A stretch of DNA of 27,929 nucleotides, from the IMG/VR virus record IMGVR_UViG_3300020392_000064, positions 1 through 27,929 of that record, one strand, 5' to 3'. This DNA is from a virus. Shown piece by piece: positions 1 through 24,100 of the stretch (the stretch's first letter is position 1; every line of letters starts with the position of its first letter). The translations under genes were made by a program, and so were the position numbers. The notes below the pieces were generated by a model, which was not told where the DNA came from, ran no database searches, and saw nothing but the letters and a program-made list of their open reading frames with translations.

Positions 1-273
1 AATGGCACAAACCTTACGTTTACAGAAGCCCCATCAACTGGCACAGGTAATATCTTTGTTATTTATCTTGGTGCAACGGATACAAGTATTACGATACCCA
101 CACAGAACAAAGGCAACTTTAAAAATGGTGGTATGTTTAGAGTTAACTCACAAACTGTAGATGTGGATACAACCATAGAAGCAACAGAGAATGCAACAGC
201 AACTGGGCCTTTGACAGTATCTTCTGGCATAACTATCACAGTAAACTCTGGAGGTAATCTAGCAATCATATGA
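1..273 (+). CDS. Tail-fibre protein, C-terminal fragment (5' end outside window)
   Basis: The frame is open from the first base of the window to a TGA at 271-273, giving the last 90 residues of a protein whose start lies to the left. The end of the protein (TGPLTVSSGITITV and a few more residues) matches the beta-rich terminal motif G-P-x-T-V-x-x-G-x-T-x-T-V common at the end of marine phage tail-fibre proteins. The same motif ends the gene at 2779-3240, so the two share a C-terminal module. Its stop overlaps the next start as ATGA, suggesting translational coupling. Function as a virion surface or host-recognition protein is inferred from this motif and the neighbours. Confidence 0.75.
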   Translation, partial: NGTNLTFTEAPSTGTGNIFVIYLGATDTSITIPTQNKGNFKNGGMFRVNSQTVDVDTTIEATENATATGPLTVSSGITITVNSGGNLAII

Positions 274-791
274 GTAACCTTTTAGTACAGAATATAAAGC
301 ATACAAATGGCACTACGGCTATGACTATAAACAGTAGTGGATTAGCGTTACCAAAAAAACCAGCTTTTCAAGCTACTTTGAGTGCTAATCAAACTTTTAG
401 TGATAACTCTAACACAAAAATAAATTTCAATACTGTTTCTTTTGATACAAGTAGTTCCTTTGATACTTCTAATTATAGATATGAAGCTCCTGTTTCTGGT
501 TATTATTGGTTTAGTTTAAAGATATATTTTGGAACAACTAGTGTGGATACAAACAGATTTATTTTATACATAGGTAAAAATGGGTCAATAAGCGCACCCT
601 CTAGAGTGCATGATGAAGATACATACGATAATACTCAAAATTCTTTTCAAATACGACAGGGTGGTTTGATGTACCAAGCTGCTGCTAATGATTATTTTGA
701 GGCATGGGTATATATGGATACTGTATCAGGGGATGGTACAGTACGGGCTGACCATACTCAGTTTGAAGGTTTTTTGGTTTCAGCAACGTAA
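270..791 (+). CDS. Tail-fibre/adhesin protein with C1q-like domain
   Basis: 173 residues. Residues 1-25 form the anchor motif (L-x-V-x-x-I-K-H, then G-T, then T-I-x-S-S-G) that recurs in the genes at 3761 and 4851. Residues from about 30 to the end have the layout of a C1q/TNF-like jelly roll: an early aromatic-rich strand, a Y-x-A-P-V-S-G-Y-Y-W-F turn near the middle, a K-N-G turn, an A-N-D-Y-F-E-A strand and a final F-E-G-F-L strand. C1q domains normally trimerise, which suits a fibre tip. The start overlaps the upstream stop by four bases. Host-receptor binding is inferred from the domain and position; no catalytic residues are visible. Confidence 0.7.
   Translation: MSNLLVQNIKHTNGTTAMTINSSGLALPKKPAFQATLSANQTFSDNSNTKINFNTVSFDTSSSFDTSNYRYEAPVSGYYWFSLKIYFGTTSVDTNRFILYIGKNGSISAPSRVHDEDTYDNTQNSFQIRQGGLMYQAAANDYFEAWVYMDTVSGDGTVRADHTQFEGFLVSAT
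297..341 (+). repeat. Anchor-motif repeat, copy A
   Basis: A 45-base stretch encoding K-H-T-N-G-T-T-A-M-T-I-N-S-S-G. It aligns without gaps to copy B at 3791-3835 with 33 of 45 identical bases by hand count, so similarity is kept at the DNA level as well as in protein. Confidence 0.6.
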
Positions 792-802
792 TAGGATAAA
801 CA

Positions 803-1270
803 ATGAGTACATTAAGAGTAGACAACTTACGAGGACAGACAGCAGGTACGAATAGGTATGTGGTTCAGGTTGTAGAGGGGAGTATTACTTCAAGAATATC
901 TACGTCATCTACAAGTCTTACTACAACTGGATTAGAAACAACAATTACACCTTCCTCTACCTCTAATAGGGTTCTAATTTCAGTAGCTCTTAATGGTATT
1001 CTAAGTCCAGAAACAGATTATGTGGTTTTTCATATATACAAAGATGATGCAAACCATCACTCTATTTCTACTAATGTTGGGCAAAATGGTGAGAGTGACT
1101 CAAGTAGCGTGGTACATTTTTATTTAGACTCTCCTTCTACAACAAGTGCTACAAAGTATACTGTTTATTACAGAAGTGGTAATGGAGGTGCTATACAGCT
1201 TAATAACTATGGCATAGGAGGAGATGGAAGCACAAGGAGTACGATATTGTTACAGGAGATTGCCCAATGA
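803..1270 (+). CDS. Tail-fibre/adhesin protein, second beta-rich class
   Basis: 155 residues. It opens with a short version of the shared anchor (M-S-T-L-R-V-D-N-L) and continues into a domain unlike the C1q class. Landmarks are a T-T-T-G-L-E-T-T-I-T-P-S-S segment near residue 40, S-N-R-V-L-I-S-V-A strands, Y-L-D-S-P-S-T-T-S-A-T-K-Y in the second half and a terminal R-S-T-I-L-L-Q-E-I-A-Q. The genes at 1267 and 3237 share this layout. I recall the pattern from marine phage fibre genes but cannot name a Pfam family. Its last four bases overlap the next start (ATGA). Receptor binding is inferred from context. Confidence 0.65.
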   Translation: MSTLRVDNLRGQTAGTNRYVVQVVEGSITSRISTSSTSLTTTGLETTITPSSTSNRVLISVALNGILSPETDYVVFHIYKDDANHHSISTNVGQNGESDSSSVVHFYLDSPSTTSATKYTVYYRSGNGGAIQLNNYGIGGDGSTRSTILLQEIAQ

Positions 1271-1755
1271 GTACGCTTTCAGTAGACACAATACAGGGTA
1301 AGACCACAGCAGGAACAGTGGCTATGCCAGCAGGAGCTATGTTACAAGTAGTGCAAACTCATGTAACAGCTTATACGCAAACATCTAGCAGTTCAAATTC
1401 AAGCACAGGCTTGACTGTCGCAATTACTCCTAAGTTTTCATCTAGCAAAGTATTAATCACAGGAAATATTAATGGATGTTATAGTAATGCCGCGACTAGA
1501 TATGCAAGATATGAGTTGTTCAAAGGCGGTTCATTTCTAGTATATATTCATGCTTTAGTAGGATATGACCAAAATGAAGTAATTTATAATACAGATTGGA
1601 GTTTTAGTTATTTAGATTCGCCAAACACAACATCAGCAACAACATATGACCTTCAATGGTCAGCACACAATGGTGGTATTTCTCATTTTAATAACTATGG
1701 TTCTTCAAATAACACAACAAGGTCAACAATAACAGCTTATGAGATAGCAGGATAA
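1267..1755 (+). CDS. Tail-fibre/adhesin protein, second beta-rich class
   Basis: 162 residues, a paralogue of the preceding gene. The N-terminus is M-S-T-L-S-V-D-T-I-Q-G-K-T, followed by a M-P-A-G hinge also present in the gene at 3237. The body carries S-T-G-L-T-V-A-I-T-P-K-F-S-S-S-K-V-L, then F-S-Y-L-D-S-P-N-T-T-S-A-T-T-Y, a H-N-G-G-I turn, an N-N-Y-G loop and the terminal R-S-T-I-T-A-Y-E-I-A-G. The strong match at both ends with a divergent middle suggests duplication followed by divergence of the exposed loops. The start overlaps the preceding stop by four bases. Its exact place in the tail is not shown by the sequence. Confidence 0.65.
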   Translation: MSTLSVDTIQGKTTAGTVAMPAGAMLQVVQTHVTAYTQTSSSSNSSTGLTVAITPKFSSSKVLITGNINGCYSNAATRYARYELFKGGSFLVYIHALVGYDQNEVIYNTDWSFSYLDSPNTTSATTYDLQWSAHNGGISHFNNYGSSNNTTRSTITAYEIAG

Positions 1756-1765
1756 GGAGAAAACA

Positions 1766-2179
1766 ATGACAACAATATCACAAGCATTAACGAGTTTAGG
1801 AGTTACAGAGTGGGTTCTTAGAGGAGAGCCTACAAATGAAGAAGAGTTCAACCAGATGTTTCGTAAGGTTACTGGAGCCGATAAAAATGGTTCAGCTATA
1901 GAAAGTGCAGACCCAAAGGACTGGGGTGTGAATTATGCACAAGTAGCAGGTGAAAAGACATTACTGCAAAGCCGTGAGCCAATGCGATTGCTTCGTGTAG
2001 AACGAGACAGATTACTGGCAGAAACAGATTGGACTGCGTTAGGTGATGTGACCATGTCGAGTTCTATGAAAACCTATAGACAACAGCTTAGAGACTTACC
2101 TGCGAGTTCTGATCCAAAGTTAGACAGTAATGGTGGATTAGACATGAGTAGTGTAAAGTTTCCAACAAAACCAAGCTAG
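1766..2179 (+). CDS. Phage tail assembly chaperone-like protein
   Basis: 137 residues, preceded by a good Shine-Dalgarno sequence (AAGGAG) about seven bases before the ATG. The C-terminal third has the pattern R-L-L-R-V-E-R-D-R-L-L-A-E-T-D-W-T followed by Y-R-Q-Q-L-R-D-L-P. This is the signature of the Phage_tail_APC (tail assembly chaperone, DUF4376-like) C-terminal domain found beside many tail-fibre genes. The N-terminal part (V-T-E-W-V-L-R-G-E-P-T) is a typical short lead-in. Members are thought to help fibre folding or attachment. Its location among the fibre genes fits that role. It could instead be a minor structural protein. Confidence 0.65.
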   Translation: MTTISQALTSLGVTEWVLRGEPTNEEEFNQMFRKVTGADKNGSAIESADPKDWGVNYAQVAGEKTLLQSREPMRLLRVERDRLLAETDWTALGDVTMSSSMKTYRQQLRDLPASSDPKLDSNGGLDMSSVKFPTKPS

Positions 2180-2187
2180 GAGTAAGT

Positions 2188-2769
2188 ATGCCTTTAACAA
2201 AAGTCAGATCAGGTGGGGTAGAGTCAGTAGCTACGAGTTTATTAACAGGAACTACATTACCAACATCCATATCTGGTCTTGGCACAGCGACTACATCTTT
2301 ATCTGGGTCAATGCCAAAGACGCTCACAGTTCCGTCTGGTTGCAGAAATTTTACAATAGCAGTAAACGATTGGTCTTATACAGGAAGTGGTAACCCAGAT
2401 TTTGGTTTTCATATTGGCACAGGTGGTAGCCTTTCAACATCTGGATACATGGGTCAGATTGCGTATATTTACAATCAAGGCAGTGATAGTAATGACGTTG
2501 AAACAACAAAAATACGAAGTGTAGGCAACTGGGGGGCTGATTCAAAGCATAATGGGATAGCTCATTTTTACCTAACAGCATCTAATACTTGGGTAATATC
2601 TACTCAGTTTAATGTTGATAATAGTGGTAGTTATTCAAATGGTGGGATTATATGGTCGCCTACAAGAATAGCACTTGGAGGAGAGTGTAATATAGTTGGG
2701 TGGGTAGATTTTACTTCAACAGGTGGTGTTACTGGTGACAGTGGCAATATGACAGCGTATTTTTATTAG
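2188..2769 (+). CDS. Putative tail-fibre protein, distinct class
   Basis: 193 residues. The opening M-P-L-T-K-V-R-S-G-G-V-E-S followed by T-T-L-P-T-S-I-S-G-L-G-T-A-T-T is the kind of lead-in often seen on marine phage fibre and decoration proteins. The rest is rich in Gly, Ser, Thr and aromatic residues, with S-G-S-Y-S-N-G-G-I and a glycine-rich end, consistent with a beta-sandwich. It lacks the anchor motif of its neighbours and is neither C1q-like nor of the second class. A GGAG ribosome site lies just before the start. The assignment rests mainly on composition and position between fibre genes. Confidence 0.55.
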   Translation: MPLTKVRSGGVESVATSLLTGTTLPTSISGLGTATTSLSGSMPKTLTVPSGCRNFTIAVNDWSYTGSGNPDFGFHIGTGGSLSTSGYMGQIAYIYNQGSDSNDVETTKIRSVGNWGADSKHNGIAHFYLTASNTWVISTQFNVDNSGSYSNGGIIWSPTRIALGGECNIVGWVDFTSTGGVTGDSGNMTAYFY

Positions 2770-2778
2770 GAGAATAAT

Positions 2779-3240
2779 ATGCCCTATATAGGAAAAGCAC
2801 CCAACCAAGGCGTTAGAACACGCTTCATATACCAAGCTACGGCAAGTCAAACGTCTTTTAGTGGTTCAGATGCCAATGCAAACGTATTAAGCTACAGTGA
2901 TGGTGAGTATGTGGATGTCTATCAGAATGGTGTTTTACTGAAACCTGCAACAGATTACACCTCTACATCTGGTACAACGGTGGTGCTAGTAACAGGAGCA
3001 TCTCTTAATGATGTAGTAGAGATTATAGTGTATGACGCTTTTTCTATAGCCAACAGTTATACCAAAGCAGAATCAGATACACGCTATCCTTTTCTTGGAA
3101 ACGACAGTATAATACGAACCAACGGTAATAGTATCACGGCAGATATAACAATACCCAGTGGTACAAATGGATTGTCAGCAGGACCTATAACAGTTACAAA
3201 TGCTACAATTACAGTTAACGGAGTGTATACAATAGTATGA
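2779..3240 (+). CDS. Tail-fibre protein, T7-gp17-like connector with C-terminal beta motif
   Basis: 153 residues. It starts M-P-Y-I-G-K-A-P. Its first hundred residues hold V-D-V-Y-Q-N-G-V-L-L-K-P-A-T-D-Y-T and D-V-V-E-I-I-V-Y-D, a pattern seen at the N-terminus of many cyanophage and pelagiphage fibre proteins and resembling the virion-attachment part of T7-type fibres. Y-T-K-A-E-S-D-T-R-Y near residue 95 is a widespread tail-fibre motif. The end repeats the G-P-I-T-V-x-N-x-T-I-T-V pattern of the fragment at the left edge. At 153 residues it is much shorter than one-piece T7 fibres. The stop overlaps the next start as ATGA. Confidence 0.7.
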   Translation: MPYIGKAPNQGVRTRFIYQATASQTSFSGSDANANVLSYSDGEYVDVYQNGVLLKPATDYTSTSGTTVVLVTGASLNDVVEIIVYDAFSIANSYTKAESDTRYPFLGNDSIIRTNGNSITADITIPSGTNGLSAGPITVTNATITVNGVYTIV

Positions 3241-3761
3241 CCAGTAGATTATTAGTAGATAAGATTGAGGGTAAGACAACATCTGGAAATATTCAGATGC
3301 CAGCAGGTCATATTGTTCAGACACAAACGGCTCAAGCCTTAACAACAACTTCTATAAGTAGCACTACTTTTGCTGATGTTACTGGAATGTCCATATCTTT
3401 TACAAGCAAATTTAGTTCTTCAAAATTACTTATGATTGCTCAAGTTCATTGTTATGTAGAAAATAGTTCTAGTGGAACTTGGTTAGGTGTAGATTTTAGA
3501 TTTTTAGAAGATAGTACAGTCATTCGCTCTCCAGTTGCTTCTGGGAATGGATATGGAATAGCTCATGCAGGAGGAAATGATGCTACTACTAGAATTATGG
3601 ATTATGCTATGTTTACACACGAACATTCCTCACCAGATACTTCTGCTCATACATATAAATTACAAGTGCATACAACAGAGGGAAAAACTCCTAATGCTGA
3701 AATAAATAATAATACTTATGGTGGTGGTGGTAGATTAATAATAATGGAGATAGCTCAATAA
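3237..3761 (+). CDS. Tail-fibre/adhesin protein, second beta-rich class
   Basis: 174 residues, third member of the class at 803 and 1267. The anchor is M-T-S-R-L-L-V-D-K-I-E-G-K-T-T-S-G, followed by an M-P-A-G hinge nearly identical to the 1267 gene. The body has D-V-T-G-M-S-I-S-F-T-S-K-F-S-S-S-K-L-L, a histidine-rich segment (E-H-S-S-P-D-T-S-A-H-T-Y) where relatives have L-D-S-P-x-T-T-S-A-T, and the terminal G-G-G-R-L-I-I-M-E-I-A-Q. Start and stop both overlap neighbours. A surface, host-contacting role is inferred. Confidence 0.65.
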   Translation: MTSRLLVDKIEGKTTSGNIQMPAGHIVQTQTAQALTTTSISSTTFADVTGMSISFTSKFSSSKLLMIAQVHCYVENSSSGTWLGVDFRFLEDSTVIRSPVASGNGYGIAHAGGNDATTRIMDYAMFTHEHSSPDTSAHTYKLQVHTTEGKTPNAEINNNTYGGGGRLIIMEIAQ

Positions 3762-4318
3762 TGGCAAGTGAACTTCATGTAGATTCAATAAAACATTCTG
3801 GTGGCACAAGTGCCATGACGATAGATAGTAGTGGAAGAATTACAACTTCAACAGCAAGACCTCATATGTTTTGTTTAGGTTTTTCAACTACATCAGATAA
3901 CGCAAGTAGTGGTACAACTATAAATGGGTTGACACTGGATGGCACTTGGAAACTTATAAGAAATTTTGAGCAAGTTTTAGAAAATTACGGAAATCATTAC
4001 GATAATTCAACTGGAATATTTACTGTTCCAATATCTGGCATTTATATGCTTAGTTTAGGTGTTGGTTATGTTGAAGCTACTAGCGATTATATAGGATTAG
4101 GTATTATTACTGGTGACAGTGAGGATAGTAATACTGGACTAAGAACAATGTGGGATTACGCTGATTATCTAGATACACCTATGCACATGAGTTTTTGTAA
4201 ATATCTTGTAGCAGGAAAATCAGTTGCAGCTTGCATGAGACAGGAAGCAGATAATGTTACCTCTCCAAATGATTCTCATCAGAAATATTTTCATTGGAAT
4301 GTAACTTTTTTAGGATAA
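3761..4318 (+). CDS. Tail-fibre/adhesin protein with C1q-like domain
   Basis: 185 residues. The anchor (L-H-V-D-S-I-K-H-S-G-G-T-S-A-M-T-I-D-S-S-G-R) fills residues 5-26. A C1q-like domain follows, with N-F-E-Q-V-L-E-N-Y-G-N-H-Y, then T-G-I-F-T-V-P-I-S-G-I-Y-M-L-S-L, and a final hydrophobic strand W-N-V-T-F-L-G. These match the early strand, the central F-x-A-P-x-x-G-x-Y turn and the last strand of the C1q fold. There are several Cys and Met residues, unlike the neighbours. The ATG shares its first A with the preceding stop (TAATG). A role in receptor binding is inferred. Confidence 0.65.
   Translation: MASELHVDSIKHSGGTSAMTIDSSGRITTSTARPHMFCLGFSTTSDNASSGTTINGLTLDGTWKLIRNFEQVLENYGNHYDNSTGIFTVPISGIYMLSLGVGYVEATSDYIGLGIITGDSEDSNTGLRTMWDYADYLDTPMHMSFCKYLVAGKSVAACMRQEADNVTSPNDSHQKYFHWNVTFLG
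3791..3835 (+). repeat. Anchor-motif repeat, copy B
   Basis: A 45-base stretch encoding K-H-S-G-G-T-S-A-M-T-I-D-S-S-G. By hand count it shares 33 of 45 bases with copy A at 297-341 and 33 of 45 with copy C at 4920-4964. Confidence 0.6.
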
Positions 4319-4321
4319 ATC

Positions 4322-4846
4322 ATGGCATCAATACTTAAAGTAAATACCATACAAGACGCAACGAACTCTAATACGGCTATTTCTGTGGACAGTAGTGGTC
4401 GAGTGACAACTCCTGCTAGACCTTTTTTTCATGTGTATGTAGACAATGGTGGTAGTAATGTTACCAGTGGATCAGGAACAGATTTAGTGCAGTTTGATGG
4501 AGTTGTAAGTAATGTTGGTTCACATTTTAACGCCACCAGTTCAGGAAACGGCTACAGTTTCACAGCACCAGTAGCAGGTATTTATCAATTTAATTGGAAT
4601 TTATCTATTTATGGTATTAGTTCTGGTAATTGGCTTAGACAACGAGTCTATAAAAATGGCAGTTCTTTGCAAATACATGGGTATCTGGATATCCAAACGA
4701 CAGATGACCAAAATATAAATTCTGCTTTTTCTCTTTTGCTTTCAGCCAACGATTACATTCAATTTTATGCAAACTCGCAAGTTAGTACATTTTATTATTC
4801 AGCAGGAACGACATGGAACACTTGCACAGGATATTTAGTAGGATAA
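4322..4846 (+). CDS. Tail-fibre/adhesin protein with C1q-like domain
   Basis: 174 residues. It has a degenerate anchor, M-A-S-I-L-K-V-N-T-I-Q ending in I-S-V-D-S-S-G-R, so the last part of the motif is better kept than the K-H-x-G-G-T core. The C1q-like part is clear: F-D-G-V-V-S-N-V-G-S-H-F-N-A, then Y-S-F-T-A-P-V-A-G-I-Y-Q-F-N, a Y-K-N-G-S-S turn, L-S-A-N-D-Y-I-Q-F and a final C-T-G-Y-L-V-G. There is a three-base gap to the preceding stop. Trimer formation at a fibre tip is known for C1q folds; its use here is inferred. Confidence 0.7.
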   Translation: MASILKVNTIQDATNSNTAISVDSSGRVTTPARPFFHVYVDNGGSNVTSGSGTDLVQFDGVVSNVGSHFNATSSGNGYSFTAPVAGIYQFNWNLSIYGISSGNWLRQRVYKNGSSLQIHGYLDIQTTDDQNINSAFSLLLSANDYIQFYANSQVSTFYYSAGTTWNTCTGYLVG

Positions 4847-4850
4847 CACC

Positions 4851-5390
4851 ATGAGCAAAGCAGCAGAATTAGCAAAATTTATAGCAGATGGCACTTTAGG
4901 ATCAGACGTTACAGCAATTAAACACTCTGGGGGTACAAGTGGGTTAACTATTGATAGTTCTGGTCGTATATTATTTCCTAACAAACCTGCTTTTTCAGCA
5001 AGTCGTGATGCAGGTCATGTTACCGTAGGAAATTTTATTGTGTTTGATGATGTAAGAGTAAATATAGGCAGTCATTATAATGCGTCAGATGGAAAATTTA
5101 CGGCTCCAGTTGCAGGTAATTATGCGTTCTTCTTTTACGCTATGTCAAATCACTCTTTAAACAATGTTAATATTGCTATAGAGTTTTGGAAAAATGGTAG
5201 TTATTTAGGTGATGCAAGTCCTTTAGGTAGACAAAGTAGTGATTATAGTCACGGTCAAATAAGTGGGCATATAATTTTAACTCTAGCGGCAAGTGATTAC
5301 ATACAAGTAAAAAATGCAGGAGGCACTGACTCTACATTATACATGACTGGAAACGCACATAATGAGTTTAGTGGATTTTTAATAGGATAA
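4851..5390 (+). CDS. Tail-fibre/adhesin protein with C1q-like domain
   Basis: 179 residues. An extra leader (A-A-E-L-A-K-F-I-A-D-G-T) precedes the anchor I-K-H-S-G-G-T-S-G-L-T-I-D-S-S-G-R. This leader is itself a common opening of marine phage fibre proteins. The C1q-like domain is the most canonical of the set: F-D-D-V-R-V-N-I-G-S-H-Y-N-A-S-D-G-K-F-T-A-P-V-A-G, then Y-A-F-F-F, a W-K-N-G turn, L-A-A-S-D-Y-I-Q-V and E-F-S-G-F-L-I-G at the end. Spacing to both neighbours is three to four bases. It is probably a virion surface protein. Confidence 0.75.
   Translation: MSKAAELAKFIADGTLGSDVTAIKHSGGTSGLTIDSSGRILFPNKPAFSASRDAGHVTVGNFIVFDDVRVNIGSHYNASDGKFTAPVAGNYAFFFYAMSNHSLNNVNIAIEFWKNGSYLGDASPLGRQSSDYSHGQISGHIILTLAASDYIQVKNAGGTDSTLYMTGNAHNEFSGFLIG
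4920..4964 (+). repeat. Anchor-motif repeat, copy C
   Basis: A 45-base stretch encoding K-H-S-G-G-T-S-G-L-T-I-D-S-S-G, collinear with copies A and B and matching copy B at 33 of 45 bases by hand count. Confidence 0.6.
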
Positions 5391-5393
5391 AAT

Positions 5394-5753
5394 ATGCTTG
5401 GCTTTAATGCCATATCAGAAGTCTCTATTGCAGAACTACCAGGTGCTTTTGTACCAGTAAGTGGACAGGTAGGAACGTCAGCTTTAGGTAGCGTTGGTAT
5501 TACAAGTTTTGGTGCTGCCGATGCTATAGGCGTGTCAGCCACGATGGCTTTAGGTGAGATATCCGTTACAGGAACAGCTAACATATCAATAACAGGATTA
5601 TCAGCTATAGGTGAACTAGGAAACGAAACAGTATGGGGATTAGTGGTAGCAGGTGTAGACAACACATATACGAACATAACAACAGGTGCTTCACAGACAT
5701 GGACAGAGATAAACACAGAAGCATCTCAAACATGGACAGATGTTATACAATAG
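5394..5753 (+). CDS. Repetitive beta-rich tail protein
   Basis: 119 residues built almost wholly of degenerate short repeats. Units of the type A-x-G-x-x-x-V-T-G-x-A-x-I-x-x-T-G-L-S-A run through residues 25-75. The C-terminus has an 11-residue tandem repeat (A-S-Q-T-W-T-E-I-N-T-E, then A-S-Q-T-W-T-D-V). Similar proteins with a run of such units ending in W-containing repeats occur next to fibre genes in marine phages. The composition, without Lys or Arg and very rich in Gly, Ala, Ser and Thr, suggests a beta-solenoid or fibrous structural piece. No specific function can be read from it. Confidence 0.6.
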   Translation: MLGFNAISEVSIAELPGAFVPVSGQVGTSALGSVGITSFGAADAIGVSATMALGEISVTGTANISITGLSAIGELGNETVWGLVVAGVDNTYTNITTGASQTWTEINTEASQTWTDVIQ

Positions 5754-5787
5754 ATTATAAAGGTTAAATAAGATTTAAGGAGAAGCA

Positions 5788-7059
5788 ATGCCAAGTACAT
5801 ATACAGACAATGGTGGTATAGAAAAGATTGGTCTTGGTGAAAAGGCAGGAGCTTGGGGAACCACCACAAATAACAACTTTGATATTATAGACAGGCTGAC
5901 CAACGGAGTTGGAGCCATAACACTTTCTGGAACAACACATACATTAACAACATCAGACGGAAGTTTGTCTGATGGTATGTTTAAGGTTTTGGTTTTAGGA
6001 GGGTCACCTTCTGGAACAAATACAATAACAATAAGCCCTAACGATGCAGACAAGCTATACTTTGTACAAAATAACTCTGGTCAAACAGCCACATTTACAC
6101 AAGGCTCTGGTGCTGACGTAAGTGTAGCAACAGGTGAGGCAGCTATAATATTTGCAGATGGTGCAGGATCAGGGGCAGCCGTAACAGACTTGTCAGCGTT
6201 GTTTCCTTTGAAGTCTGGAGTGGCAGCATCATTCACAACAATAACGGCAGGCACATCAATATTGCCTGACACATCTGGTGGGGCAGACATAGGCTCTGCA
6301 TCTGCTGAGTTTGGAGACATATACATAGCTGACGATAAGAAGATTAAATTTGGCTCTGACCAAGATATAACGATGGAATACGATGAAGATGGCACAGACA
6401 GCTTATTAATATCAGGTGGTGATGTAACCATAGCTGATGACAAAAAGTTATTCTTTGGCACAGATAAAGACGTAAGCATAGAGTATGATGAGGATGGCAA
6501 CAACACTATGCTAGTCACAGGTGATGTAGTTTTTGCCGATGGATCAACATCTGTGGATATTAAGTCACATGATTTAAGTGCTAACGGACTAAAGCTAGAC
6601 GGCACTTTGGTTACAGCTAGTGCAGCCGAACTCAACCATTGTGATGGCGTTACCAGTAATATTCAAACACAGTTAAACACAAAAGTAACATCTTCAGGAG
6701 TTACCTCTGTGGCAACAGGTACTGGGCTAACTGGAGGAACGATAACAAGCACTGGAACTATAAGCGTAAACACAGGCATAGGAGAAGTGGGAACTTATGC
6801 TTTTTTGGCAAGACAGGGATACTCAACTATTGTAGCAGGACAGACTTACACAAACTCTGGAAGTGGGGCGACCAACAATAGTGCAAATTTAGTTTATGCA
6901 GGGTTTCTTAGTGAAGGAGATAACAATTTTGATGACGATACTGCACTTGACTCAACTGGCTCTTCGACAACCACAGGTTTGACTGGGGTTTGGAGAGCAA
7001 TGGGAAGTGCTGATGCTGGAAGTCGTGTTGCAGCCACCCTCTTTCTAAGAATATCGTAA
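5788..7059 (+). CDS. Tail-fibre protein with 35-residue tandem repeats
   Basis: 423 residues with a strong ribosome site (AAGGAG, six bases before ATG). The N-terminus (Y-T-D-N-G-G-I-E-K-I-G-L-G-E-K-A-G-A-W-G-T-T and N-F-D-I-I-D-R-L) is a recurring marine phage fibre lead-in. Residues 182-250 hold two 35-residue repeats with E-Y-D-E-D-G. Near residue 279 A-A-E-L-N-H-C-D-G-V-T-S-N-I-Q-T-Q-L is a classic fibre motif, probably a coiled connector. The C-terminus has G-V-W-R-A-M-G and ends L-F-L-R-I-S, like many phage proteins that close with T-W-R-C-M-G and L-W-L-R-I-S. It is the longest fibre gene here and may be a central fibre to which the small ones attach; that last point is inference. Confidence 0.75.
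   Translation: MPSTYTDNGGIEKIGLGEKAGAWGTTTNNNFDIIDRLTNGVGAITLSGTTHTLTTSDGSLSDGMFKVLVLGGSPSGTNTITISPNDADKLYFVQNNSGQTATFTQGSGADVSVATGEAAIIFADGAGSGAAVTDLSALFPLKSGVAASFTTITAGTSILPDTSGGADIGSASAEFGDIYIADDKKIKFGSDQDITMEYDEDGTDSLLISGGDVTIADDKKLFFGTDKDVSIEYDEDGNNTMLVTGDVVFADGSTSVDIKSHDLSANGLKLDGTLVTASAAELNHCDGVTSNIQTQLNTKVTSSGVTSVATGTGLTGGTITSTGTISVNTGIGEVGTYAFLARQGYSTIVAGQTYTNSGSGATNNSANLVYAGFLSEGDNNFDDDTALDSTGSSTTTGLTGVWRAMGSADAGSRVAATLFLRIS
6331..6540 (+). repeat. Two 105-base in-frame tandem repeats within the fibre gene
   Basis: Copy 1 starts at 6331 and copy 2 at 6436, exactly 105 bases (35 codons) apart. Both encode D-D-K-K, an F-G-(S/T)-D-(Q/K)-D core and E-Y-D-E-D-G. The second copy drifts after the E-Y-D-E-D-G. 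Such repeats usually form stacked beta units in fibre shafts. Confidence 0.7.
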
Positions 7060-9176
7060 TGCCATTACAAAAACTACAGTTCAGAGCAGGTATAAACAGA
7101 GACTCTACATCATATACCAACGAGGGTGGATGGTTTGATGGAGACAAAGTACGTTTTAGAAATGGCTTGCCTGAGAAGATAGGTGGTTGGACAAAATATT
7201 CTGATACACAGTTTGTAGGAACCTGTCGTGCCTTGCACACATGGACAGCATTAGATAACACAAACTTTATAGGCATAGGCACAAGTCAAAAGTATTACCT
7301 CAACGCAGGTGGTACTTATTACGACATAACACCTCTTAGACTTACTACAGGTGGTGGTGATGTTACATTCTCTGCAACAAACGGAAGCTCTACCATAACT
7401 GTGACCGACACAGATCATGGAGCAAACCTAAATGACTTTGTTACATTTACAAACGCAGGAACATTAGGTGGCAACATAACGGCAGATGTTCTCAATCAAG
7501 AATATCAAATATCATCTGTTACAGCGTCAAACACCTACACAATAAATGCAAAAGATACCAGTGGTAATGGTGTGTCAGCAAACAGTTCAGACACAGGTAA
7601 CGGTGGTAGTTCTACAGTGGGAGCGTATCAAATAAACGTAGGACTAGACGATAACTCATACGGAACAGGTTGGGGTGCAGGAATATTTGGTGGTATATCT
7701 GGATCAGCAGCAACCACAGCCGTAAACGATGGAAGTGGCATGACAGCTTCAGCCACTAGCGTAACAGTTGATTCATCAGCTAACTTTGAAACAACAGGAT
7801 ACTTGTTAATAGACAGTGAGATAATTCAGTACACAGGAAAAACATCTACCACATTTACAGGACTACTGAGAGGGTTGTTTGGAACAACGGCAGCCACTCA
7901 TGCCGATGATGCCACAGTCACAGAGGCACTAGGTGGTTGGGGTATGCCTGCAACGACAAACGTAGCAGGAGCTTTGTTGAGACATTGGTCACACGATAAT
8001 TTTGGTGAAGACCTAGTTATGAATGTTAGAGATGGTGCAATATATTATTGGGATAAATCAGGTGGTACATCCACAAGAGCCGTAGAGATTACAACACTAG
8101 CAGGGTCTACCAACGCACCAACAATAGCAAAGAAGGTAATAGTCTCTGAAAGAGACAGACACGTTTTAGCCTTTGGTTGTGATAGCGAGACAGCAAGTGG
8201 CACACAAGACCCATTGCTAATTAGATTTGCCTCACAGGAAAGCCTTACGGAATGGAACGCTCTTCCTACGAACACGGCAGGTGAGTTGCGTATTGGTACA
8301 GGATCAGAGATTGTTACAGCCGTACAGACAAAGCAACAGACACTTGTTATTACAGATGTGTCCGTACACGCTTTGCAGTTTATTGGCCCTCCGTTTACTT
8401 TTGGTATTACAGAGGTTGGTAGAAACACCACAATAATATCTGAGAATGCTGCTGTTGCTATAGAGGAATCCGTATACTGGATGGGATACAGAGAGTTCTA
8501 TGTTTATAATGGTCGAACACAAAAGCTCGTATGTCCTGTACAGGACTTTGTGTTTAGTGATTTAAACAGAGATCAAGATACTAAGATAGTAGCAGGTCAG
8601 AACAGTGCATACTCTGAGGTATGGTGGTTCTACCCATCATCAAATGCAACAGCCAACGACAGATATGTGGTGTACAACTACGAACAAAACATTTGGTATT
8701 ATGGCACTCTAGCAAGAACAGCGTGGGTAGACAGAGGTGTTTTGTTGTATCCTATAGCTGCCTCAACAGATAACTATCTATACTATCAGGAGTTTGGTTT
8801 AGACGATGGATCGCAGTCACCTGCATCAGGAATTACATCGTTTATAGAATCAAGTCAGGTTACCATAGGAGATGGAGACAAGTTCTTCTTTGCAAATAAA
8901 GTTATACCAGACATAACATTTAGAGAGAGTACAAACGAAACACCACAGGTCAACTTGACGTTAAAGGCAAGACGGTTCCCTGGGACTACATACAATCAGA
9001 CAGAGACAAGTGCAGTTACACAGTCAGCAAGTACGCCTATAGAGTTATTCACTGAGAAGGCTGATATACGCCTCAGAGGGCGTTCTTTTGCTCTTAGGCT
9101 AGAAAGTACAGCAACAGGCGTTTCATGGCGTTTAGGAACCACTAGAATTGATCTGAGGCAGGATGGTAGGCGATAA
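7059..9176 (+). CDS. Packaged-DNA stabilisation protein, P22 gp10-like
   Basis: 705 residues. The N-terminus has G-I-N-R-D-S-T, G-G-W-F-D-G-D-K-V-R-F-R-N-G and G-G-W (residues 11-44), the opening shared by phage stabilisation proteins of the P22 gp10 type. The middle (about 367-480) carries R-H-V-L-A-F-G, R-F-A-S-Q-E-S-L-T-E-W and W-M-G-Y-R-E-F-Y-V-Y-N-G, consistent with the beta-propeller-like body. In P22, gp10 plugs the portal and adaptor stack and holds the packaged genome. At 705 residues this protein is longer than the roughly 470 of P22, with an insert near residues 100-300 that could be an extra beta domain. Its position beside the fibre genes fits a tail-hub role. Confidence 0.7.
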   Translation: MPLQKLQFRAGINRDSTSYTNEGGWFDGDKVRFRNGLPEKIGGWTKYSDTQFVGTCRALHTWTALDNTNFIGIGTSQKYYLNAGGTYYDITPLRLTTGGGDVTFSATNGSSTITVTDTDHGANLNDFVTFTNAGTLGGNITADVLNQEYQISSVTASNTYTINAKDTSGNGVSANSSDTGNGGSSTVGAYQINVGLDDNSYGTGWGAGIFGGISGSAATTAVNDGSGMTASATSVTVDSSANFETTGYLLIDSEIIQYTGKTSTTFTGLLRGLFGTTAATHADDATVTEALGGWGMPATTNVAGALLRHWSHDNFGEDLVMNVRDGAIYYWDKSGGTSTRAVEITTLAGSTNAPTIAKKVIVSERDRHVLAFGCDSETASGTQDPLLIRFASQESLTEWNALPTNTAGELRIGTGSEIVTAVQTKQQTLVITDVSVHALQFIGPPFTFGITEVGRNTTIISENAAVAIEESVYWMGYREFYVYNGRTQKLVCPVQDFVFSDLNRDQDTKIVAGQNSAYSEVWWFYPSSNATANDRYVVYNYEQNIWYYGTLARTAWVDRGVLLYPIAASTDNYLYYQEFGLDDGSQSPASGITSFIESSQVTIGDGDKFFFANKVIPDITFRESTNETPQVNLTLKARRFPGTTYNQTETSAVTQSASTPIELFTEKADIRLRGRSFALRLESTATGVSWRLGTTRIDLRQDGRR

Positions 9177-9472
9177 TGTCCACAAAAGTACCCATACCGT
9201 TCTTTCCATCTGCTCCAAGCGAGTATGATGCAAACTACATGGCACAGATCGTAAGAGCCTTTGCGATATATGCAGAACAGCAAAACGCAGGGGGAGAGGG
9301 CAGAAACACAGGTCTAGTCTTAACTAATCTACAGGCACATGACGATAACCTAGAAGTTGGGTCATTGTTTGACCACGATGGTTTTGTGAAGATAAGTAGA
9401 GTAGATAGACCACATCCAAGAGGCAGTTTGGGAACGACAGGACTAGGGTCGGTAACCGTAACATTACCATAA
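9176..9472 (+). CDS. Small conserved-looking phage protein, unknown
   Basis: 98 residues. It starts with a proline-rich stretch (V-P-I-P-F-F-P-S-A-P), then Y-M-A-Q-I-V-R-A-F-A-I-Y-A-E-Q-Q-N, a probable amphipathic helix, and a Gly/Thr-rich end. There are no transmembrane helices or recognisable catalytic motifs. The start shares its A with the stop of the gp10-like gene, so the two are probably translated together and this may be a small tail-hub or tail-tube companion. That role is inferred from position only. Confidence 0.55.
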   Translation: MSTKVPIPFFPSAPSEYDANYMAQIVRAFAIYAEQQNAGGEGRNTGLVLTNLQAHDDNLEVGSLFDHDGFVKISRVDRPHPRGSLGTTGLGSVTVTLP

Positions 9473-9473
9473 A

Positions 9474-10031
9474 ATGGGCAAAAGAAGTAACTTTGAGCGT
9501 GTAGAGAAAGACTATTATCCGACTCCACTAGAGGCTGTGCATCCTCTTATTCCTCACATACTTGGTCACATCAAGACATTTGCTGAACCATGTGCAGGTG
9601 ATGGCTCCCTGATACGTCATATAGAATATCTTACAAATAACCTTTTTGATATTGACTATATTAGGTGCAACTATGCCTGTGATATAGAGCCAAAGGATGA
9701 TGGTATACACGAAAAGAATGTGTTTAATCTTCTTCCCAAAGACATAGAAACATCAGACGTAATTATAACAAATCCACCGTGGAGCCGTGAGATACTACAC
9801 AGGGTAATCTATCACTGCACCTCAATAAAACCTACATGGTTGCTGTTTGATGCCGACTGGATGCACACCAAACAAAGTACACATTACCGTGATATGTTGA
9901 AAAAGATTGTAAGTGTTGGTAGAGTGGAGTGGATTAAAGGAAGTAAAAACACTGGTAAAGATAATTGTTGTTGGTATTATTTTGATAAAGACAACAAGGA
10001 ACAGACACAGTTTTTTGGTAGACAGACATGA
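9474..10031 (+). CDS. DNA adenine methyltransferase-like protein
   Basis: 185 residues. A D-Y-Y-P-T-P opening (13-18) is followed by motif I F-A-E-P-C-A-G-D-G-S-L (36-46), the S-adenosylmethionine-binding loop. Motif IV N-P-P-W (100-103) follows V-I-I-T, the catalytic signature of N6-adenine methyltransferases. A D-I-E at 70-72 fits the acidic residue after strand two. Short phage methyltransferases of this type lack a large target-recognition domain. No restriction endonuclease lies nearby, so it is an orphan enzyme, perhaps protecting phage DNA from host restriction or marking it. The stop overlaps the next ATG. Target sequence unknown. Confidence 0.75.
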   Translation: MGKRSNFERVEKDYYPTPLEAVHPLIPHILGHIKTFAEPCAGDGSLIRHIEYLTNNLFDIDYIRCNYACDIEPKDDGIHEKNVFNLLPKDIETSDVIITNPPWSREILHRVIYHCTSIKPTWLLFDADWMHTKQSTHYRDMLKKIVSVGRVEWIKGSKNTGKDNCCWYYFDKDNKEQTQFFGRQT

Positions 10032-10363
10032 AACAAAAGAAACTAGAAAAAGGCTCCGTGTGGGAAAAAGCTGACGCAAACGGTGACGGTGTAGTTACAG
10101 ATCAAGAGATGGCTATGCGAGAGCGTATGGTTCTTTTGGAGAATAGAGACAAGAAAGAGGATCAACAAAGATATCTTGTTTGGTTTTCGGCACTGACTGT
10201 AACAGTGTTTATTGTTGTATTAATGACACCACTTGTGCCTATAGATAGAATTTCACACCTCTCAGGTATCGCTGAAATTTGGGTATTATCAAACATGGGA
10301 GTTATCGGTAGTTTTATAGGGTTTAATCAGCTTGCCAGAAGAGCAGACAAAGGAGAAAAATAA
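10028..10363 (+). CDS. EF-hand membrane protein
   Basis: 111 residues. Residues 16-27 (D-A-N-G-D-G-V-V-T-D-Q-E) match the 12-residue EF-hand calcium loop, with Asp/Asn/Asp at positions 1, 3 and 5, Gly at 6, a hydrophobic at 8 and Glu at 12. A charged helix follows, then two hydrophobic segments at about 49-71 and 84-103, and a basic tail. A soluble calcium-binding head on a two-helix membrane anchor is the simplest reading. It lies 1 kb upstream of the holin in the lysis region, so it could be a second holin-like or regulatory protein. That is inference, and a single EF-hand loop may be structural only. Confidence 0.65.
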   Translation: MKQKKLEKGSVWEKADANGDGVVTDQEMAMRERMVLLENRDKKEDQQRYLVWFSALTVTVFIVVLMTPLVPIDRISHLSGIAEIWVLSNMGVIGSFIGFNQLARRADKGEK

Positions 10364-18163: not shown

Positions 18164-21100
18164 ATGGGTGTTATAGTTGTCCAAGACCCACAGACATTAA
18201 AACCCTACAGTATTCAGATTGCAGGTGATTCTCCTACTGAAGACGAACAGAAAGAGATACAAGAATTTATACAGCAACAGAGGCAGGTAGTAGATACACC
18301 TGTGGAGCCAACTGATGATAAGTCAGGCACTGCTTTAGGTCGTGGAGCTAGTGTAGGCATAGATATGCTACAGCAAATGTATGGTAGTGCCATAGAAGGT
18401 GTTGGTAATGTCACAGGTATAGACGCTTTGAGAGACTATGGTGCGTCTGTTGTAGAAACCAATGAACAGCAAATAGCTGAAAAGCAACAAGACTTTACAA
18501 GGCGAGAGGACATAGGAAAAGATGGCTCTTATGTAGGCGATGCCTTTAGTTTCTATGGTGAAACACTAGGGCAAAACTTGCCACAGCTAGGTACATCTAT
18601 AGGTGCAGGTTTAGTTGCACAGACTGCCCTTCCATTTGCACCAGGTGTTGGATTTCTTATTGGTGCATTGGCATCAAACATACCCTTCTTCTATGGCTCA
18701 CACAGAGAGAGACAAAAGGAGGCTGTAGAGCAAGGTGTAAGAACAGAGTTAGACGAAGGCACAGCCTTCATGTATTCTTTACCTGCTGCAGCTCTTGACA
18801 CTGTTGTTGATAGGATATTGGTGGGTCTTAAGCCTCTTGGATTAGGTCTAAATAAAACAGCATTGTCGCCAACAGTTGGTGGTATTTTTACTCGTGCAGC
18901 AAAAGGAGCAGGGGCAGGTGCAACTGTAGAAATACCGACAGAAATAGGTCAACAGGTTATAGAACGCTATCAGGCAGGATTACCCATAGATAATGATGAG
19001 GCTATCAAGGAATATATAGACGTAGGGATAGCGGCAGGTCTAGTGGGTGGTACTGTAAAAGCTACAACCAGTGTTGTCACAGGTGATACTAAAGAGAACA
19101 TAGAAAAGAAAGAGGCTGCTCTAACTAAACGACAGCTAGAAATAGACAATGCCTTGCAAACGGCAGAGGCTAAGGAATTGCAACAGAACGCAGAGAAAAA
19201 CCTAGAAGAAGGTTTTGATGGCGTTTTGCCTGTGGATAGGTCTATAGAAGAGGCAACCATATTAACATCACCTACCGATCCATCTGAGGATCAAGCTCTA
19301 AGAAGACAAACTGGTGAGATTAAAGTATTTGATTTAAGACCAGAGTATAGAAACATACTTCTTCAGGAAAGACAAAAGGCAGATGTAGACGTTGATAATC
19401 CTGTTACTGACCTTCAAGAAATAAAAAGATTTTTAGAGCCTCGAACAAGACAAGGTATAACGGCAGAGATAGCCAACGAAATCAACACTATGAATGTTCC
19501 TAAGAGGTTCGAGGAAAGTCAGTACAACACTGTTGTTAATTACTTTAAGAAGAAGAGCGTTGATACAAAGGAACTAACAAGGGAGAACATAGTTGATAGG
19601 GTCAAGAAGATACTTGTTTCAGGCAAGCAGACGGATGAGGGTGGTGCTGTTACGAACACAACAGCGAGGAGAATTGTTGACCAGATGGTTCTGGATGGAC
19701 ATATAAGTCTTGCCAGACCTGAATCAAAGGGAAACGACAGAACATATGTTATTAATGAAGAAACTCTTAACGACAAAAGAAACAAAGAGTTAGAGAACGC
19801 CAGAAAGCTATTGGAGAACGCCAAGGAAAGAAAGCCTAAGATACAAGAAGAACGTGAGGAGGCATTCTCTGGAGAAGTTGATAATAGCATTCAGGCTATA
19901 CTTAACAGAAGTGACAAGCAAAGAAAGTTAGATGATGTAAATAGTGAGATTAAGAACTTAAATTCAACCATAACTAGACTTCAGAAAGAAATAAAAGAAT
20001 CTAACCCCACTTTAAATCTAAGAAGAAAAACAGCTACAGAGATTAATCCTGTACAGCAAAAAGTTAACAATGCTCTTATTACGGCAGAGCAAGCTGCTAA
20101 GTTTCGCCAAGCTGATAAAGACAAGGAAAAAGCACAGTATATCAACAAAAGAGATGACGTACTAAGATCACTGAGAAAGTACATGGCTAAATTAGGATTA
20201 GCCGATGTTGAACTTGTTGCTGAGAATGTTATTGGCACTCAAGGAAAAGACTTATCTAAGAAAGACTTCATCGTAGAGGGTGAGTTTAATGATTCGGATG
20301 GTAGACGCATAATCAGTTTAGCCATGAGCCTCTATGATAGAAATCTGTCTAACACAGAGTTTGAGCAAAGACTTCAGGGTGTTTTAAATCACGAGATTAT
20401 ACACGCTGTAAAGAGCCTTGGCTTGTTTACAGACGCTGAATATAAATCCTTAGTCAAAGCAGCCATGACAAGAAAGTATGTTGTTAAAGATGGCAAGAAA
20501 CTTATAGAGAGAAGATATACATATTTCGATAGAGCCAAAAGTTTATATCCAGATTTAAATCAAGAAGGCGTACAAGAGGAAGCCATAGCTGAGATGTTCC
20601 GTGATGCTATGGATGGCAAGCTGAAACTAGCAGGTCGTCCAAAGACATTGATGCAAAGGTTTATTGACTTCTTCAAGTCCATATTCAATGCCCACGAGGA
20701 AAACGGTTTCCAAAATGTTGACGATATATTTGAGGGCATTAGGACAGGAGACATAGGTGAGAGAGCGAGAACTGATGATCGTGAGTATTTAGATACAAAA
20801 GTATCACCTCAAGCTGAACAAGGTAAGCAATCAAGAAGAAGTTTAACCACAACACTTAATCCTGTTACAGCAAAGGAAGAGATAAGAGCCAATAAGGTTG
20901 GTGGTAAGATTACGGTTCCAGACTTACAGAATTATCTGCAAGATTTTCACATGAAAACATATGGTAGACGATTAGACTTTGCCAACTCTGAGGATAGAGC
21001 CATAGCTATAAACACTGCCGTTCCAGAGATACTTGATATGTTAAAGAGAGATGTATCAGGTAAGGGTTGGTACGATGAGGATGTTGTAAAAACATTTGAG

Positions 21101-24100
21101 ATGTTATCTCAGATACCAGACTTGGAAAGTCTAAAGAGCAATGAAAACCGTAGAGTTCTCTGGTCAGCTATTGCAGGTGTGACTTCAAACGGTAATTCTG
21201 TTCCTCTTAATGCTAAAGTATCTACGTCACAATTACTAAGGCTATTCAGAACAGGTAAACTAGATACAGTTCAACCTGTTGCAGGATCAACTGTTGAAGG
21301 CGTGGTGAATGCAGGATTTGGATCAAGAGGCCCTACTGTTGCAAAGGGTTTAGACCTTTTAAATAAACTATTAGATAAATTTGGAGAAAAAGGATTTGCT
21401 GAGTTCTGGCTTTCTCAACACACACTTAGAGAGTTGGGAGAAATAAGAAAAGAGGCAGGTTTTGGCGGCGCACCTGGTAGTCTTAGTGGTGGAATGAATA
21501 GTATGCACTTAGGTGCAAAGATTATAGGCGATAAGACAGGTAACTTTTCTTTAGCTATAAATGGCTACGATGTCTCCACAAAGGACGTTTGGTTTACTCG
21601 AATGATCCGAAGACTTGAAGGAACATTTGATACTAAAGGTCGTCACTTAGAGGGCAAAGAAAAAGGAAAAGAATTTGGACAGCCAAAGGGTGCTGTGGAC
21701 AGACAAAACATGGATGACTTCATGGCTGAACTTCAAGGCGATCCAAGGATAGCTAAGTTCAACTTGTCAAAAAGAGATTTACAGGCTATACTTTGGTACA
21801 AAGAGCAAAACTTATATACAGAGTTGGGTGTTCCATCAAGACCCCAATCTTTTAGCGAAGGGATAGAAACACTAAATGACCTCTTACCAGAAGGACAAAG
21901 ATTTCAGCGAAGCGATGATGCTGAAACTCAGGCTCAACGAGGAGCTACGCAACTCGAAGGATTTCGAGAAAGAACAGCAGGACAAGAAGCCCTCCCCACA
22001 ACCACAGGAACAGCAAAGAGATCAGTAAGGAAGTTACACAACTTCATTAGGGAAAATCCTGAAGGATTTACTATTACTTCTGACAAACTTGAACCTGTAT
22101 CTGGTGGATTTCCTGTGGCTCCTCTTAAGGACGCTGAGATTATTGTAAAGGGAGATATCACTAGAAGTGTATTAAGAGAGTATGTACAAAACGCCAGAGA
22201 TTTAGCCACTGCATTAGACAGAGAAGTGTTCTTGGGAGGGTGGCTCGACAATGAGACAAATCAGTATTACCTTGACAATGTTGTCCTACCTGATAATAGA
22301 GAAGAGGCTTTATACATAGCCGAAATAGCCGATCAAGAAGCATTTTATGATTTAAATACATTTGAAGAGGTAAGGACTCAAGATGGAATTAGACAACTCA
22401 AACAAGACGGAGCTTATCGGAGTGACATCTCAGAGCGACTTAGACGAGATCTTGAACAAGCTAGAAAACGCTTTAAAGAAGCAAGGCTTCAACGTGATAG
22501 ACGATCAAAACAATCAAGAAGAGCCACAGCAGGAGAAGTAAATCCTACTCTCTTTGATGTAGCACCACAGGAAGACCTAGATAAACTATCAGAGGCTGTA
22601 AACAGACTTGATGAACAAGTCGTAACGCCAAATGTTAAGTATTCTCGTTTAGCAACTAAGCCATCTAATCCAAACGCACTGCGTGAGATACCCATAAACT
22701 TTGAAAATGTTCCTATAGATTACAAGCGACAGCTTAGTGAGTCGGCACTGAGATACGCCTATGGCTATGTAAGAGAGCGTGGTGGTGATGTCATACCTGT
22801 AACATACACAGATGGTAACCACGTTGTTCTCAAGGATGGTCGAGAGGGTGGTTATGGTGCATGGCACATTGTAACAAGAGGACACGACAAAGAAATAAGA
22901 GATGCCACAGGTCAGGAGCCTGATCGAGTCATATACACCATGATGAACAAAATGATTCAGCAAGAGTATGGCAATGCAGGATATCAGGGAATAGATGTAA
23001 AATCTGACACTGGTAGAAGTATACAGCTAACATGGGAATCTAACAGACCAAAGGGTTACCCTCCTATAATACTGTCTTTGATGTTTCAACCAAGCACCAA
23101 GGCTTACACTGTTAGAACCATATATCCAACAAGAGAGCAAAGAAAGCCAAGGCTAACTTTTCAGACAGATAGAAACAGATCAAGAAGGCCAAGCCAAGAT
23201 AGCCCCTTTGCATCCCTTCAACAGCTTAACCTACAATCACCCGCCAGAAGGAGCGTAAGGCGGCTCAGTGTGGCTCCTACAGGCTCTCAGAGCCTATTTG
23301 GAGCAGAGGGTACGTTTGGTGAGTTAGATCAGAGACTACAGGCCACAACATACACTAATTCTCTACAGGCAATAGAGAAGGTGATTCGTGGTGGAACACT
23401 AGGGTTTGTATCCCAAGAGAAAGCCAAGAAGTTAGCCACAAGTTTTATATCTAAGTTTCAAGACAAGATGATCCCTGTGGCTATCATGCTTGATGAATTA
23501 AAAAAGAAAGGTCTTAAGTTAAGGGATGCTTTTGATCCGTATCTACAGGACGAGCTATTCTATGGTATCACTGGAAGAGAAATAACCTCCAGACAGGAGG
23601 GTATATATAACGATATTGTACAAGGTATTAAACGTCTTATAGTCACAGACAGTGATATAGATGGTCTTATAAGTGCATCTAAAGCAAACAATCCTTTACG
23701 ATCCAGTTTTGTTGACGAGCAAATAAAGGCAGGCAAAGACAAGAAGGTGGCTTTGTTTGAGGCATATCTATATGCAAAACACGCCAAAGAAAGAAACGCA
23801 TACATCCTAGACAAGACATCACAAGAAATTGATAAGATGACACCAAATGAAGTTGGCTCTGGTATGACAGACGCAGAGGCTGATGCCATAATTAACTGGT
23901 TTGACACATACGCCAATAAAACACAGGTTGAGGTTATAAATGGTCAGGTAAGGCAAGTAGTAGCCGACACTAACAGAGTAAGACAAGATGGTCAGTTGTC
24001 ACCTATATTTGATGAAGATGATGCACCTTGGAAGTCTTATGTGCCTCTCAAGGGTTCTCTTGACCCTGATGACGAAACAGCCGAACTGTCCAACAGACCA

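Follow-up and report, generated by a model that had tools for sequence, protein, structure and literature searches.

Organisation of the locus

The stretch of DNA analysed here (the window) is a viral sequence of 27,929 nucleotides (nt; IMG/VR record IMGVR_UViG_3300020392_000064, positions 1 to 27,929), which begins with a tandem array of short genes for adhesin-like tail proteins. Comparison with related phages shows, at the level of sequence, that this array consists of fixed, tagged slots whose heads are exchanged between phages. Analysis of the open reading frames identified ten complete genes on the same strand between positions 270 and 5390, their ends overlapping or nearly touching, with many ATGA and TAATG overlaps. 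Eight of these are anchor-plus-head genes of 468-582 nt (slots A, B, C, D, F, G, H and I), accompanied by one chaperone (slot P) and one headless fibre gene (slot E). The slot P product is identified as a tail-fibre assembly chaperone both by the Pfam family Phage_tail_APC and by the tail-fibre-assembly families of PHROG. The array exceeds positions 1-5390: the Z gene belongs to it on the upstream side and slot K, which has a variable C-terminus, on the downstream side.

An earlier note on this DNA had counted about nine adhesin-like genes together with a fragment at the edge. Eight of the genes do have an anchor and a head, but slots P and E do not belong with them, being respectively the chaperone and a conserved fibre gene with no head. 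The edge fragment is the C-terminus of a headless paralogue of slot E.

Table 1. Genes of the array and its downstream border (positions in the window; aa, amino acids; AF2, AlphaFold2; pLDDT, predicted local distance difference test; TNF, tumour necrosis factor; Z, structural similarity score)
Feature	Position	Strand	Evidence and remarks
Slot Z, C-terminal fragment	1..273	+	Paralogue of slot E; 149 aa at full length in relatives (MPYVGS...); conserved, no variable head
Slot A, 173 aa: anchor MSNLLVQNIKHTNGTT + C1q head	270..791	+	Pfam C1q, 1.7e-9; class model
Slot B, 155 aa: anchor MSTLRVDNLRGQTAGT + TNF-like-lectin-class head	803..1270	+	Class model; predicted fold of the class
Slot C, 162 aa: anchor MSTLSVDTIQGKTTAGT + TNF-like-lectin-class head	1267..1755	+	AF2 prediction, pLDDT 84.7; PLTL Z 15.6, BC2L-C Z 14.6
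Slot P, 137 aa: tail-fibre assembly chaperone, no adhesin	1766..2179	+	Pfam PF16778, 5.3e-12; PHROG tail fibre assembly
Slot D, 193 aa: very short anchor M(A/P)LTKVR + head of neither class	2188..2769	+	Profile matches; class model
Slot E, 153 aa: conserved, fibre/stalk-like, no variable head	2779..3240	+	Full-length conservation in relatives; HMO-2011 gene 72% identical
Slot F, 174 aa: anchor MTSRLLVDKIEGKTTSG + TNF-like-lectin-class head	3237..3761	+	Class model; anchor-free walk
Slot G, 185 aa: anchor MASELHVDSIKHSGGTS + C1q head	3761..4318	+	Pfam; class model; either class in relatives
Slot H, 174 aa: anchor MASILKVNTIQDATNS + C1q head	4322..4846	+	AF2 prediction, pLDDT 83.1; C1q fold; cassette boundaries
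Slot I, 179 aa: anchor MSKAAELA + C1q head	4851..5390	+	Pfam C1q, 1.3e-17; head of about 365 aa instead in most relatives
Slot J, small tail-region gene: conserved N-terminus, remainder partly variable	5394..5753	+	
Slot K, 423 aa, fibre-like: conserved N-terminus, variable C-terminal tip	5788..7059	+	PHROG 31104
T, 705 aa, conserved virion structural protein, backbone marker	7059..9176	+	phrog_3287

Slot order in related phages

Relatives were collected using the conserved neighbours T, P and E as baits, and never the anchors themselves, which gave 213 viral loci. The comparison set comprises the 73 non-identical viral contigs with at least three anchored genes; a few are almost the same, so that the number of distinct arrays is at most 73. 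No relatives were found in cellular genomes. The order of the array in the relatives is Z-A-B-C-P-D-(D2)-E-F-G-H-I-J-K-T. It is broken in only seven contigs, against 555 adjacent pairs in the whole set, and five of the seven form one variant lineage; in a divergent lineage of five contigs, an F-like anchor replaces B. The cultured SAR116 phage HMO-2011 (GU557055) has Z-A-B-P..D-E-F-G..H-I-like genes in the same order as the window. The number and order of the genes, which the earlier note had singled out as the unusual part, are common to all close relatives and to HMO-2011.

The same order is seen without recourse to the anchors, by walking downstream from E in contigs fetched via P, E or T. 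The first gene after E starts with MTS and reaches VD at positions 7-8 in 61 of 61 distinct proteins, and the second to fourth genes almost always start with MASELHVD/MASEIKVD, MASILKVN/MASTLKIN and MSKAAELA, or close variants of these. Essentially every contig has all its slots filled; apparent gaps in the slot table are mostly sub-threshold anchors or small insert genes rather than absent slots. In a nearly complete genome of 63,202 bases (the contig of loci L130 and L230-L233) every anchored slot was found except J. We also note 72-aa mini-genes beside A/B or H/I (L118, L156, L145, L154), which in some contigs look like the chaperone's C-terminal half (..SDWTQANDSPLS..TYRQ.LR..). Promoters and terminators within the array showed no excess over shuffled sequences.

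It is worth adding that the array is not tied to one set of neighbours. The P, E and Z genes of L087 are 89-95% identical to those of L092 and the array is the same, but the surrounding genes differ: L087 has no T gene, a phrog_511 internal virion protein standing there instead, and its upstream neighbour is 79% identical to that of HMO-2011 and 33% to that of L092. The array thus behaves as a module common to phages of different backbones.

Constant anchors and replaced heads

Each slot is recognisable by its own N-terminus of 10-20 residues. Within a slot, pairwise identity among these threshold-selected sequences is 0.82-0.98 over residues 1-10, 0.5-0.9 over residues 11-20 and 0.3-0.55 over residues 21-30, and then falls to about 0.1; in slot D, which has a shorter anchor, it drops earlier than in the other slots. 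The conserved genes of the array keep their identity over the full length (0.78-0.99 for E and Z, 0.58-0.89 for P). Over the first codons, synonymous identity is 0.86-1.0 for slots A, B, G and H, but since it is also high in Z and P (0.79-0.81), a special DNA element at the anchors is not claimed.

Beyond about residue 30, proteins in the same slot are unrelated between phages, even where the neighbouring genes share 91-93% DNA identity. The T gene of the window, for example, is 91-93% identical to those of L003, L012, L098 and L142, and yet the window shares no head with them among the 5-8 compared. The 394 head sequences fall into 149 clusters at 40% identity, and 1123 of the 1407 contig pairs with at least four common slots have no related head at all. 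Mosaics, in which one slot is at least 90% identical and another is unrelated, make up 30 of the 1407 pairs; thus L012 and L098 have identical heads in F, G, H and I, and unrelated ones in A and C. The proportion of related same-slot heads stays at about 4% as the DNA identity of the conserved array genes rises from 50% through 95%, and reaches 48% only above 95%. These comparisons show that wholesale replacement of heads between phages outpaces the divergence of the rest of the locus. The heads themselves are under purifying selection (median ratio of nonsynonymous to synonymous substitution rates 0.25). Avoidance of duplicate heads within an array was not significant (one duplicate observed against 3.3 expected at 40% identity).

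Folds of the heads

The division of the heads into a C1q-like class, a second class and others, interleaved along the array, was proposed in the earlier note and is borne out here. Slots A, G, H and I match the Pfam C1q family (PF00386) with E-values of 1.7e-9, 3.8e-8, 3.4e-7 and 1.3e-17 and scores of 38.4, 34, 31 and 64.6 bits respectively, the curated cut-off being 23.7; the same profile is matched by 68 of 86 relatives. The AF2 monomer model of slot H (Table 1) matches C1q structures with a template modelling score of 0.8 on the target.

The heads of B, C and F form a single second class according to the class model, and none of them matched a Pfam family. The AF2 model of slot C superimposes on PLTL with a root-mean-square deviation of 1.9 over 126 residues (Table 1), and Foldseek matches it to the TNF-like lectin fold with an E-value of 5.6e-7. 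The profile of the class also matches the C-terminus of orf22 in PDB entry 9EFK (E-value 1.4e-17). The B, C and F heads are accordingly predicted by modelling to adopt a TNF-like-lectin fold, which would place both head classes in the C1q/TNF fold. The head of slot D matches neither class; slot D heads, in the window and in the relatives, are the most heterogeneous of all and mostly match neither. In both models (slots C and H), residues 1-20 have low confidence (pLDDT 50-61).

Movement of heads between slots

Heads are not confined to one slot, 38 of the 149 head clusters spanning more than one. The window's slot H head is 97.9% identical in amino acids to the slot A head of L134. Here the DNA identity begins at nt 51/45, within the anchor region, and runs to 8-9 nt past the stop codon, while the flanking genes differ. 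The slot G head of the window similarly has 91% identity with the head in slot A of L108. In 19 cross-slot pairs, DNA homology mostly starts at nt 4-118 of the gene and ends no more than 11 nt from the stop codon. The alignments thus show that one and the same head cassette, which starts at about codon 15-30 and takes in the rest of the gene up to the stop codon, moves between slots. The idea of tips being swapped between phages on constant anchors is therefore strongly supported and, given this traffic between slots, can be extended. A fixed array with no exchange, which the earlier note had named as evidence to the contrary, is not what the relatives present: their slot order is fixed and their heads are exchanged.

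The slots follow a class rule in the heads that they take. According to the class model, 160 of 164 B/C/F genes carry TNF-like heads and 90 of 97 A/H genes carry C1q heads, while slot G takes both classes, split 27:22. G genes with a TNF-like head have the usual G anchor, followed by the G-x-V/I-x-Q element typical of that class, so that tag, coupler and head look separable.

In L010 (1-3116) the slots are repeated as E-F-P-D-E-F, joined at a head that sits in slot F of L175 and slot C of L008. This is the arrangement that unequal exchange at a shared head would give, although an assembly error is possible.

Proposed mechanism

We consider it likely that the locus serves a marine phage of about 60 kb as a host-recognition module with several slots, each tagged and with exchanged lectin-like heads. 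Each protein would begin with a slot-specific tag of 10-20 residues, continue with a coupler specific to the class of head (about residues 15-30) and end in a lectin-like head of the trimer type. In most slots this head would have a C1q or TNF-like fold. With the aid of the chaperone P, each tag may dock a homotrimeric head at a dedicated site on the tail or the fibre complex. With a separate docking site for each tag, one virion would carry several glycan-binding tips, and it is plausible that a single particle displays several tips at once.

As to how the heads are exchanged, the first 45-75 nt of each gene, together with the genes P, E and Z, could provide homology for recombination between co-infecting phages. 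The anchors are related between some slots (C with F; A with G and H), which would let a head pass now and then into a different slot. The simplest account is ordinary recombination during co-infection, via the conserved anchors and P, E and Z, and the finding of no reverse transcriptase or invertase in 15 relatives argues for it. The Sak annealing protein of the window was considered as a general engine of exchange and rejected, being absent from the nearly complete 63-kb relative; it may help exchange in its own lineage.

A fuller form of the proposal is more tentative, and we would give it slightly less than an even chance. It envisages about eight orthogonal peptide tags with their own docking sites, a shared pool of lectin heads subject to the class rule, a near-random draw of heads for each phage, and a module that is used across backbones.

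Alternative explanations

The comparative data are almost entirely metagenomic, and short-read assembly might join foreign heads at conserved anchors, in which case the mosaics would be chimeric and the exchange only apparent. The anchors do have 45-75 conserved nt. The ends of the 63-kb contig of L130 fall within the anchor of slot F, as though assembly had broken off at the shared sequence, and L010 resembles a junction at a head common to slots F and C. However, an anchor and the start of its head fit within one read, so that slot-head junctions cannot easily be chimeric, and the clonally isolated HMO-2011 has the same slot series, which means that the array is not an assembly artefact. Identical haplotypes were obtained from different metagenomes (L012/L128, L098/L099/L101, L003/L093, L087/L089, L127/L004, L137/L136 and L108/L104), the nearly complete 63-kb genome speaks against wholesale chimerism, and the purifying selection on the heads also counts against it. 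Chimeric assembly is in our judgement quite improbable. Still harder to credit is a dedicated diversification system, in which a diversity-generating retroelement mutates the heads or an invertase or shufflon switches them. Adhesins with a conserved N-terminus and a variable C-terminus also mark such systems, and C1q or lectin heads would be natural targets, but no reverse transcriptase (RVT_1) and no serine or tyrosine recombinase was found in 15 relatives including the nearly complete 63-kb genome. The array contains no inverted repeats beyond one chance-level pair, all its genes are on one strand, and the heads differ either as whole unrelated domains or by purifying substitutions.

It could also be that the genes are real and exchanged, but that only one or two of the products are present in the virion, or that they are decorations for non-specific attachment to surfaces or particles. 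C1q-like proteins act as decorations in other settings, the phages CRP-1 and CRP-9 carry long fibres at this position, so that eight tips are not a general necessity, and no virion proteomics was found. Nevertheless, each slot is filled in essentially every contig and retains its own tag, purifying selection acts on the heads, and the array includes a fibre chaperone; this alternative seems to us unlikely. Some further points weigh against the module of tagged, head-exchanging slots. The docking of the tags and the presence of the proteins in the virion are matters that we infer, as are trimerisation of the heads, the modelling having covered the monomer, and glycan binding, since a fold does not in itself show function. 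The low pLDDT of residues 1-20 is consistent with a flexible tag, yet is uninformative. The threshold of the anchor search inflates N-terminal identity in the slot comparison, of which the anchor-free walk is the unbiased version, and no recombinase emerged that all these phages share.

Neighbouring genes

Further downstream of T, the window encodes a holin, an endolysin, a 2708-aa LPD38 protein and the Sak annealing protein. The 2708-aa protein (18164-26290) has its LPD38 domain near the C-terminus, and its N-terminus is weakly similar to a virion structural family. The Sak-type single-strand annealing protein (26841-27635, minus strand) matches PF06378 with an E-value of 1.6e-38. In the structural gene block, a 185-aa protein (9474-10031) matches positions 201-370 of phrog_799, which is annotated as a DNA methyltransferase.

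Significance and comparison with known systems

Modular receptor-binding proteins (RBPs) are well known, but a phage usually has between one and four of them, of large size. In this array there would be at least eight small tips in fixed, tagged positions. The constancy of the proportion of related heads at about 4%, at every divergence up to 95% DNA identity, implies that the host-recognition genotype is almost uncoupled from the phage lineage. This bears directly on the way in which marine phages keep pace with hypervariable hosts, and also on the failure of core genes to predict host range. Swappable tips would let natural phage populations mix and match their grip on bacteria, and the tags would constitute a natural set of short attachment peptides.

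The closest counterpart in a cultured phage is the array of HMO-2011, where a matching series of short fibre genes comprises two MPYIG genes, a chaperone, a D-like gene with a VALT start, MTS- and MAS-anchored genes and an MSKAAELA gene. Its chaperone shows 36% identity, and one C1q gene is annotated; no HMO-2011 match to the T gene of the window was found among the matches listed, and the genes for capsid and polymerase fall beyond the window. HMO-2011 differs in that many of its slots have a third type of head, ending in GDLA, and in that its annotation is without slot or cassette logic. Five slots with GDLA-ending heads lie at 5355-10170 (L218), and similar endings occur in L007 and L038. 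The HMO-2011-type roseophages CRP-1 (L219) and CRP-9 (L221) have a few long fibre genes where HMO-2011 has its array of short genes. The Methylophilales phage Melnitz-3 (L224), a myophage of the Kyanoviridae, has a mini-array of four genes at 6028-8384 with the same kind of anchors, heads ending in EIAQ and a chaperone that is 51% identical.

No description of the slot-and-cassette organisation was found in the open-access literature of PubMed Central (PMC), subscription journals not having been searched, nor did any open-access PMC paper combine HMO-2011, tail fibre and C1q. In metaviromic islands of marine phages (Mizuno et al. 2014, PMC3909814), C1q genes have been described beside tail fibres as candidates for receptor binding; their N-terminus recruits reads well and their C-terminal domain is hypervariable. 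That study concerned single C1q genes deduced from read recruitment, with no multi-slot array, cassette boundaries, slot traffic or TNF-like class. PLTL of Photorhabdus and the N-domain of BC2L-C of Burkholderia bind fucosylated glycans (PMC12914763); they share the predicted fold of the B, C and F heads, but only 8-20% identity, and they are not phage fibres.

T4 gp10-like or triple-helix N-terminal assembly domains were not recognised in the array, where anchors of 10-20 residues are too short for them. The general organisation resembles that of branched multi-RBP complexes, in which a phage has several RBPs with conserved N-termini for assembly and exchanging variable C-termini (PMC11414711, PMC10253068), such as TSP1-4 of the Ackermannviridae and the nine tail-fibre proteins of Alcyoneusvirus RaK2. 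The window likewise has several RBP-type genes, whose N-terminal attachment regions are conserved and whose C-termini are exchanged. However, the Ackermannviridae and RaK2 have multi-domain anchors and large depolymerase heads, whereas the array described here has anchors of 10-20 residues and lectin-like heads of about 130 aa, which move between slots.

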